NCBI GenBank assembly: GCA_944390125.1
Contig: CALXOX010000002.1
Location: 62,001-126,000 of the forward strand
DNA: 64,000 bases
DNA from: an uncultured Alphaproteobacteria bacterium
Lineage (GTDB): Bacteria > Pseudomonadota > Alphaproteobacteria > Rs-D84
Direction of reading: 5' to 3'
Shown piece after piece: positions 33,111-49,362 of this stretch. A program made the position numbers and the translations under genes. Each line of letters starts with the position of its first letter. Within the stretch, counting starts at the first letter, position 1. The notes under the pieces were generated by a model. The model searched no databases, was not told the origin of the DNA, and saw nothing but the letters and a program-made list of their open reading frames with translations.

Positions 33111-33186
33111 GTCCCCATAGTTCAACTGGATAGAATAGAGGTTTCCTAAACCTTTGATACAGGTTCGATTCCTGTTGGGGATACCA
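33111..33186 (+). tRNA. tRNA-Arg (anticodon CCU)
   Basis: The acceptor stem GTCCCCA/TGGGGAT closes with one G-T pair, the anticodon loop is TTCCTAA and the T-arm is CAGGTTCGATTCCTG. CCA is encoded. The last 19 bases of the tRNA are the beginning of the tandem repeat that follows. Confidence 0.94.
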
Positions 33187-33477
33187 GAGGCGTCGAGCCT
33201 GTGTGGAAGGTTCGAACCGCAGCAAAAAGGCGGAATTACGCCGGTCACCGTTAGGTGATTTTGCAAGGTGACGAAGTATTCCTGTTGGGGATACCAGAGG
33301 CGTCGAGCCTGTGTGGAAGGTTCGAACCGCAGCAAAAAGGCGGAATTACGCCGGTCACCGTTAGGTGATTTTGCAAGGTGACGAAGTATTCCTGTTGGGG
33401 ATACCAGAGGCGTCGAACATGTGTGGAAGGTTTGACGCAGATTAAAAAGGCGGACGGCAGTGCGCCAATTTATTTTG
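33168..33477 (+). repeat. 110-bp tandem repeats seeded by the tRNA-Arg 3' end
   Basis: Two identical 110-bp units (33168-33277 and 33278-33387) are followed by a diverged partial third from 33388. Each unit begins with ATTCCTGTTGGGGATACCA, the T-loop to CCA end of tRNA-Arg(CCU). Each then continues through GAGGCGTCGA, the palindrome GGTTCGAACC, a GGCG/CGCC stem and a TCACC-GTTA-GGTGA hairpin. The third copy keeps the first 29 bases and then shares only scattered blocks. The repeats lack a 5' tRNA half, so they are not tRNA genes. No ORF is supported in this 300-base gap. Confidence 0.9.
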
Positions 33478-33492
33478 TGAAGGTTTTAAATT

Positions 33493-33819
33493 ATGAAAAA
33501 TAAAGCAGTAAAAATAGGAATTATCGCAAGTATATTGCCTCATTTATTTTGTTGTGTGTTGCCGATAGTTTTATCAATAGTCAGTTTGTTTACACCTGAA
33601 GTGGCTCATGCAGAATTTATACCTCATTGGTTTGAGCCGTGGTTATTTGTATTTTCTGGTTTAATGTTGTGTCTTTCTTGGTTTTTAGTTGCACGAGATT
33701 GTCATTGTGAGTGTGAACATTGTCATGGTGAACATCATCATACGCAAAAGATTATACTGGCAGTTATCACAATCATATTTATTGTAAGTATAATCTTACA
33801 TTTTATTGCTCATCATTAA
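33493..33819 (+). CDS. Small His/Cys-rich membrane protein (MerC/MerT-like character)
   Basis: The 108-residue protein has three predicted membrane helices. A CC pair lies in the first helix region (HLFCCVLPIVL). A cytoplasmic or periplasmic loop is dense in Cys and His (CHCECEHCHGEHHH). Such features occur in MerC/MerT-type mercury or other heavy-metal transport proteins, but no family can be fixed by eye. The ATG at 33493 follows GTGAAGG. The gene stands alone after the tRNA-derived repeats and ends in its own terminator. Confidence 0.7.
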   Translation: MKNKAVKIGIIASILPHLFCCVLPIVLSIVSLFTPEVAHAEFIPHWFEPWLFVFSGLMLCLSWFLVARDCHCECEHCHGEHHHTQKIILAVITIIFIVSIILHFIAHH

Positions 33820-48834: not shown

Positions 48835-49362
48835 ATGTTTTTAAAAGCGAAAATTTGTTTAACAGTTGCGGCATTATACGAGATATTGATTGTAAGTTTA
48901 TTGCAAAGCCAGCGTTTTTGTGACGCAATGTTTGGTGTGTCATTTTGTGATGCAACAGTGTTTAAATATTTCATAATGTGCTTTGCGGTACCTATGGTGG
49001 CGTATTTGATAGTGATGTGGATAATGGAAATTATTGATAGTGTTCGTCATCGTCATACATTATTTTACAAAGCGACACACGCGATGAAGAATATTGCCGA
49101 GAACGTAAAAGATAAAGTTTCTGAAAATGTGTCTGCCGGAGATTTAGAAAAATTGATAACTGCGGCATTGATGGTCGGGTTAAAAAGGTATGCAGACAAA
49201 AGTCCGCATGCACGTAAAGTTTTGGATGAAATGAATAAGGTAGATGTTGATTATGATGAATATGAAGATGAAGAAGACGATGGGGATGATTATGAAGAAG
49301 AAAGTCGTTCATATAAACCGCAAAATAAAATGAGCAAGAAAAACAATAAGAAGAGAAAGTAA
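48835..49362 (+). CDS. Hypothetical inner-membrane protein with acidic and basic tail, 175 aa
   Basis: Two helices (residues 5-25 and 43-66) are followed by an amphipathic helix region (AMKNIAENVKDKVSENV). The tail is strongly acidic (DYDEYEDEEDDGDDYEEE) and then Lys-rich. The ribosome-binding site is AAAGGAGAGAG. It starts 24 bases after the barrel protein gene and may share its transcript. I do not recognise a family. Confidence 0.65.
   Translation: MFLKAKICLTVAALYEILIVSLLQSQRFCDAMFGVSFCDATVFKYFIMCFAVPMVAYLIVMWIMEIIDSVRHRHTLFYKATHAMKNIAENVKDKVSENVSAGDLEKLITAALMVGLKRYADKSPHARKVLDEMNKVDVDYDEYEDEEDDGDDYEEESRSYKPQNKMSKKNNKKRK

Follow-up and report, generated by a model that had tools for sequence, protein, structure and literature searches.

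Gene-less modules at the T-loop junction of tRNA genes in Candidatus Enterousia appear to be integrating elements of a new, miniature type that targets tRNAs

Here we describe a family of tiny modules that lie behind tRNA genes in the gut genus Candidatus Enterousia, and that seem to represent a new, miniature form of integrating element directed at tRNAs. The 3′ ends of tRNA genes are the classic landing sites of genomic islands, and to our knowledge the known elements of tRNA 3′ ends carry an integrase and use one tRNA or a few. Here, a genus with reduced genomes holds many gene-less modules at many tRNAs, each matched to its tRNA in both sense and antisense. In our judgement the chances are about even that these units are minimal gene-less integrative modules, or "solo att cassettes", targeting the tRNA T-loop between nucleotides 58 and 59. 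If the modules move, they would show to what extent an integrative element can be stripped down, with one core re-targeted between tRNA genes, and folded-DNA recombination could be tested in a natural system other than integrons and filamentous phages. Should they act as RNA, they would represent a new kind of tRNA 3′-end regulator.

The window, by which we mean the whole stretch of 64,000 nucleotides that was analysed, contains a tandem array of such units behind tRNA-Arg(CCU). Its features, all on the plus strand, are as follows, with the supporting evidence in brackets.

33111..33186, plus strand: intact tRNA-Arg(CCU), host gene of the array (ARAGORN, Rfam)
33169-33186, plus strand: nt 59-76 of tRNA-Arg(CCU) (ARAGORN, Rfam)
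33169..33278, plus strand: unit 1, from the 58|59 junction, comprising the tRNA 3′ half and the module up to the next 3′ half (repeat finder, TRF)
33187..33206, plus strand: antisense T-arm segment of unit 1, drifted here and clearer in relatives (comparison)
33207..33215, plus strand: T-arm 5′ half AAGGTTCGA, ending at the equivalent of A58 (sequence, comparison)
33216..33278, plus strand: folded core of unit 1 (P1-P4 covariation; fold z -3.2)
33216-33218/33267-33269, plus strand: core helix P1 (covariation)
33222-33226/33260-33264, plus strand: core helix P2 (covariation)
33229-33232/33239-33242, plus strand: core helix P3 (covariation)
33245-33249/33254-33258, plus strand: core helix P4 (covariation)
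33271-33272/33276-33277, plus strand: possible small hairpin of the core (by eye)
33279..33388, plus strand: unit 2, identical to unit 1 (repeat finder, TRF, model match)
33389..33509, plus strand: unit 3, a third copy of the 3′ half (33389-33406) and then a decayed module (identity, model match)

A preliminary description had claimed that tandem 110-bp units start from the 3′ end of tRNA-Arg(CCU), two of them identical and one diverged, and the sequence, ARAGORN, TRF and a repeat finder all bear this out. The period-110 units at 33168-33277 and 33278-33387 are 100% identical (TRF and repeat finder, with the copy number as assembled), the third copy is 60% identical over 110 nt and 88% over its first 67 nt, and with a TRF score of 516 this is the strongest tandem array in the 64 kb. 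The duplicated part of the tRNA, given earlier as 19 bases, is strictly the 18 nt of positions 59-76 (TTCCTGTTGGGGATACCA), and reaches 19 if A58 is counted. A family covariance model, built from 19 copies, matches unit 1 at 33203-33285 with 90.6 bits and still matches the third copy at about 33423-33509 (28.9 bits, E 1e-5), so the latter is a decayed unit and was wrongly taken for the original flank. The sequence GAGGCGTCGA, described before as a flank kept in the copies, is indeed kept, but it is no mere flank and belongs to the antisense T-arm copy, which reads AGGCGTCGAGCCTGT in the window against AGGAATCGAACCTGT for the T-arm complement. The palindrome and two hairpins reported for the unit are present as well, and both belong to a branched fold that is conserved. 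In Rfam at gathering score, nothing but the tRNA reaches the cut-off, and at E<=1 Rfam gives no ribozyme, intron or riboswitch. On the 3′ side of the units, with no terminator in between, lies a 108-aa hydrophobic ORF with a Cys/His-rich stretch (33493-33819, plus strand), which has no Pfam match, is conserved immediately after tRNA-Arg(CCU) in many relatives, and may form one transcript with the tRNA and the units. Elsewhere in the window, a short GAT/GAA-rich 24-bp tandem repeat at 49255-49301 is probably an acidic coding repeat.

The array is one of many. A search of the 0.9-Mb source genome for more copies, as the preliminary description had suggested, found the same core behind a tRNA-Met and behind tRNA-Arg(UCU), where two units stand in tandem and each has a terminator to itself; tRNA-Tyr and tRNA-Gly-UCC of this genome carry units with other cores. 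Using one genome per species, the covariance model found this core family, family A, in 83 of 115 genomes of Candidatus Enterousia (gut Alphaproteobacteria) and in 115 of 201 genomes of the order, almost exclusively in that one genus and with up to 10 copies per genome. Records with the core pattern likewise belong to Candidatus Enterousia or to uncultured (alpha)proteobacteria, chiefly from animal guts. The family had no match in phage or plasmid records, and the exact 19-base core pattern had none in 2.9 million viral contigs, on which grounds a phage or plasmid origin was dropped. Copies outside the order were rejected too: among the Firmicutes and Syntrophobacterales contigs with the pattern only one fits the model, and the others look like chance. 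This one is a weaker family-A match of 43 bits (L247, 1865-1956) on a contig that is binned as an uncultured Clostridia MAG and may be misbinned.

The anatomy of the units, their insertion position and their tRNA specificity are directly observed. Each unit is about 90-190 bp long and gene-less, with no integrase or recombinase gene inside it. It begins with the 3′ half of its host tRNA (nt 59 to CCA), followed by a spacer, usually a terminator hairpin, and an antisense T-arm that in many copies extends into the acceptor strand; then come a short A-rich loop, the 5′ half of the T-arm ending at A58, the folded core, and the 3′ half again. Among 116 distinct copies, 103 have a tRNA upstream on the same strand, with 12 isoacceptors represented, 73 begin at most 120 nt from the tRNA end, where chance would place about 0.3% of copies, and 70 precede the last 18 nt of their own tRNA with at most one mismatch. 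The units show two marks of a tRNA island: they lie at tRNA genes, and a 3′ fragment displaced from the tRNA stands at the far end. Thirteen copies have no upstream tRNA; among those viewed with longer flanks, several have been displaced by islands, from tRNA-Ser in L314 and from tRNA-Met in L316 and L318, and some of the others are found at the ends of contigs.

The antisense arm fits the cognate tRNA best in 85 of 103 copies. Its complementarity to the tRNA is 91-100% at nt 47-70 and 82% at nt 52, and it dips at nt 57 (34%) and nt 58 (68%), the positions that adjoin the 58|59 insertion point. Where tRNA-Arg has changed, in genomes G022, G103 and G169, the antisense arm or the 3′ copy has changed too. 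The arm matches the tRNA T-arm better than it matches the split halves of its own unit by 76 copies to 0, with 27 ties. Because near-identical cores carry different cognate arms within one genome (in G022, the Arg-CCU and His cores are 97% identical, and the Val and Pro cores 95%), cores appear to spread between tRNAs, re-matching each time.

Within the core, helix P1 (ACC/GGT) encloses P2 (GCAAA/TTTGC), which in turn carries the hairpins P3 and P4. Over 66 distinct rows, 97.8% of cells are paired against 83.2% after shuffling, both partners have changed in 139 cells, where shuffling gives 31 and slid controls no more than 12, and covariation is seen at 11 of the 17 pairs; this alignment was fitted to the covariance model, and its counts lean towards the model. 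A first MAFFT alignment gave identical helices, with 8 of the 17 pairs covarying. Two copies in G022 have the entire P2 stem swapped (GACACA/TGTGTC). G-T pairs occupy just 18 of about 1840 cells, or 1.0% with one conserved G-T position excluded, compared to 7.3% in the tRNA stems of the same genomes. Because they are so scarce, a purely RNA-level structure is disfavoured, and we infer that the helices pair as DNA or are needed on both strands.

Occupied and empty sites can be compared directly at tRNA-Arg(CCU), where the next gene is common to many genomes. Such a comparison among relatives had been proposed in the preliminary description, and it shows that unit number varies: genomes elsewhere have one unit, one and a part, or 2.6 as in the window, and in G020 (L058) the site is empty with the next gene unchanged. 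In G015, the same tRNA carries a different core family. A complete relative genome, G103, has tandem units at tRNA-Arg(UCU) that differ in sequence, and tandem arrays as such are therefore no assembly artefact; at least one unit is found at 9 of the 33 tRNA genes examined in this genome, with several core types. A second core family (GTAGATT...) shares the unit plan and has its own covarying stem, so at least one core family unrelated to family A follows the plan. Also in G103, tRNA-Gly-GCC (L277) is followed by very short tandem units of about 95 bp with an antisense T-arm and a core of about 20 nt, perhaps a minimal form.

The ordinary islands of the genus attach either at the anticodon loop of the tRNA, where the direct repeats are long, or at its 3′ end. 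Islands of a third kind are 7-8 kb long, have a tyrosine integrase of 504-522 aa, occur at tRNA-Gly, -Lys and -Val and insert at nt 58|59 or within one base of it, which is the junction used by the units. Three such T-loop islands are listed here.

L307, 6829-14068: T-loop island with tyrosine integrase
L308, 6791-13846: T-loop island with tyrosine integrase
L311, 6861-14667, minus strand: T-loop island with tyrosine integrase

The integrase scores 43.9 bits against Pfam in L307 and falls slightly under the cut-off in L311. L307 has a strong inverted copy of the right junction inside the left end of the island, L308 a weak one and L311 none; in L311 there is, by eye, a T-arm half and, ahead of the 3′ half, a foldable stretch that folds weakly (z -1.6). 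The L308 island also encodes a DUF927 protein, and the L311 island two small serine recombinase-like proteins. No autonomous element with both a family-A core and an integrase was found, and searching 47 integrase and RT loci with R1 brought up only weak matches. Displaced units sit beyond islands attached at the anticodon loop or the tRNA 3′ end, and for this reason we take such islands to have been inserted between tRNA and unit rather than to be carriers. A nested array is found at tRNA-Ser(GGA) (L314, 4852-19560, minus strand), where the tRNA is followed by an island of about 14 kb with a large serine recombinase-like gene, then by another core family with a Ser 3′ half and then by a family-A unit with a Ser 3′ half. 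A further type of tRNA-end insertion has inverted-repeat ends TCCG(C/T)(T/C)TTCGCT...; at about 1550-2030 of L156 it encloses a 79-aa GIY-YIG protein (Pfam 6.5e-15), a similar ORF is found in L095 after a unit, and in L062 and L121 the insertion is gene-less.

The source genome has only two tyrosine recombinases, both of XerC/XerD size, and with no third there is no integron-type integrase in it. Neither an R-box core site nor IntI with attI was found, the unit junction being nt 58|59 of the tRNA. None of 30 genomes, the source genome among them, has a Y1 (HUH) transposase, and a REP/RAYT or IS200/IS605 element was rejected on that basis. Reverse transcriptase is present in 9 of the 30 genomes searched and absent from the source genome, and a retroelement or group II intron derivative was rejected accordingly. 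A group I intron using the antisense arm as internal guide was also rejected, the family-A core being just about 65 nt long and without a family match.

How might such a module work as a solo att cassette? Since its left end carries the host tRNA 3′ half, the tRNA would be restored upon insertion, as happens with tRNA genomic islands. At its right end, the core would lie between the T-arm 5′ half and the duplicated 3′ half, and because the antisense arm spans the junction and complements both halves of the T-arm, one strand could fold up into a T-arm that is double-stranded, leaving the core as a loop at the crossover. A module folded in this manner would be analogous to integron attC or CTX phage attP, and the modules possibly recombine as folded DNA. 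Their movement would then have the folded single strand as substrate, with a tyrosine recombinase supplied in trans, for which XerC/D or an island integrase are the candidates. Tandem arrays would be built via insertion at the tRNA-proximal junction, along with repeated insertion or recombination between direct copies. Several points weigh against this model. The units encode no recombinase, and the source genome offers only its two enzymes of XerC/XerD size; among the genomes, which represent each species once, neither a circular form nor a recent insertion was seen; the antisense arm is a closer match to the T-arm of the tRNA than to the split halves of its own unit, which a self-folded site would not need; the island ends are only partly unit-like, as seen in the uneven inverted copies of L307, L308 and L311; and the model gives no account of how a core acquires a new cognate arm when it changes tRNA. 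We tentatively entertain, as a possibility on the lower side, a new, target-guided form of gene-less folded mobile module, in which the antisense arm would be the guide, mismatched at the insertion point, and the module would re-target tRNAs via a host recombinase, either as folded ssDNA or as a guide RNA.

The preliminary description had offered two interpretations, an attachment-type duplication and a transcribed tRNA trailer, and the first is the better half. The T-loop junction, the copy of the tRNA 3′ half at the unit end and the use of the same junction by integrase islands agree with it, but a plain excision scar leaves unexplained a core conserved in more than 100 copies and a cognate antisense T-arm. 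A transcribed trailer is possible in the window, where no terminator separates the tRNA, the units and the next gene, but at most other loci the tRNA's own terminator precedes the antisense arm and core. Transcription is nevertheless central to the main rival of the integrative-module reading, a regulatory RNA. The unit would be a cis-acting RNA within the tRNA transcript that switches or times tRNA maturation, which we find rather unlikely, as we do the detailed form, with pairing between the antisense arm and the pre-tRNA's T-arm and with the distal 3′ half as an alternative acceptor strand. The conserved core fold, the cognate complementarity maintained across species, the missing terminator in the window, and an RNA fold of tRNA plus unit (z -5.9) with two pairings, one between T-arm and antisense arm and one between the tRNA 5′ end and the distal 3′ copy, would all suit such an RNA; the terminators between tRNA and antisense arm at most loci, the near absence of G-T pairs, a unit plan common to unrelated cores, and orthologous tRNAs that function without a unit do not.

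Integrase-bearing islands at the very same junction, and the frequency of tandem and decayed copies, could also point to inert remnants, that is, the ends of larger T-loop islands left after internal deletion and multiplied by recombination between direct copies. We consider this unlikely: remnants should decay, yet the fold and the antisense complementarity are maintained over many species, a single core family is spread over 12 isoacceptors and has antisense arms to match, and no integrase island with a family-A core turned up. Template switching during replication, at the terminator palindrome and the shared T-arm sequence, could in principle make units with no dedicated enzyme. Such a by-product would fit a unit that is an inverted repeat centred on a terminator, a T-arm sequence common to all tRNAs and the core start, and a source genome lacking both RT and Y1 transposase, but it does not account for a branched core that is conserved, for the exactness of the 58|59 position or for the preserved mismatch at nt 57-58; we regard it as very unlikely, and equally so that switching copied cores between tRNA loci and created the inverted T-arm copy. 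Finally, about 18 nt of target-matching sequence stand just 5′ of a structured core, mismatched at the insertion point and closer to the tRNA than to the unit's own halves, much as if the arm were a guide and the core the scaffold of a protein directing the module to tRNA genes. With no candidate protein identified, and with the scarcity of G-T pairs speaking against RNA, this RNA-guided module seems to us highly improbable.

No such elements were found in the titles and abstracts of the open-access literature on tRNA-downstream repeats, folded att sites and Enterousia, and solo att cassettes are best placed by comparison with known systems. REP/RAYT and IS200/IS605 hairpin elements are small, non-coding, hairpin-forming and dispersed. 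The units resemble them in all of this and differ in their strict tRNA location, their long direct copies of tRNA and the lack of Y1 transposase in the 30 genomes. In the attP of CTX phage, a folded single strand rebuilds the double-stranded chromosomal target, and XerCD recombines it with no dedicated recombinase. By analogy, a folded single strand of a unit would rebuild its double-stranded target, again without a dedicated recombinase; however, the target is the tRNA T-arm and not dif, there are no phage genes, and XerCD is only a candidate. CIMEs are cis-mobilizable, have att sites without recombination genes, carry cargo, and descend from ICEs by deletion. Like CIMEs (for the term, see PMC5704250), the units are att-flanked, recombinase-less and able to form tandem arrays; unlike them, they consist of the att region only and carry no cargo. 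The attC site of integrons is a short, weakly conserved sequence acting as a folded single strand, with complementary boxes, an unpaired centre and a variable terminal structure (PMC2727003). Matching the parts by analogy, the units share the folded site, the complementary boxes, the unpaired centre and the keeping of structure over sequence, and they share tandem arrays with integron cassettes. In contrast to attC, they have no integron integrase or attI, their target is the tRNA T-arm, their boxes are tRNA sequence, and what they add in structure is a branched core at the junction, whereas that of attC is a loop where the stem ends. Closest at the target are tRNA and tmRNA genomic islands, with their T-loop attachment and tandem behaviour (Islander PMC4383910; PMC3146451), including the ssrA islands of Dehalococcoides, whose insertion point is midway along the tmRNA T-loop and whose direct repeat measures 20 bp (PMC3146451). 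The units have in common with these islands the T-loop insertion, the restored tRNA 3′ end, the direct copy at the far end and the tandem arrays, but they measure about 90-190 bp, have no gene or integrase, spread one core family over 12 isoacceptors, and possess a conserved fold with an antisense T-arm. The T-loop junction and the tandem behaviour are therefore already known from tRNA/tmRNA islands, and there is a real chance that the targeting mechanism is new.
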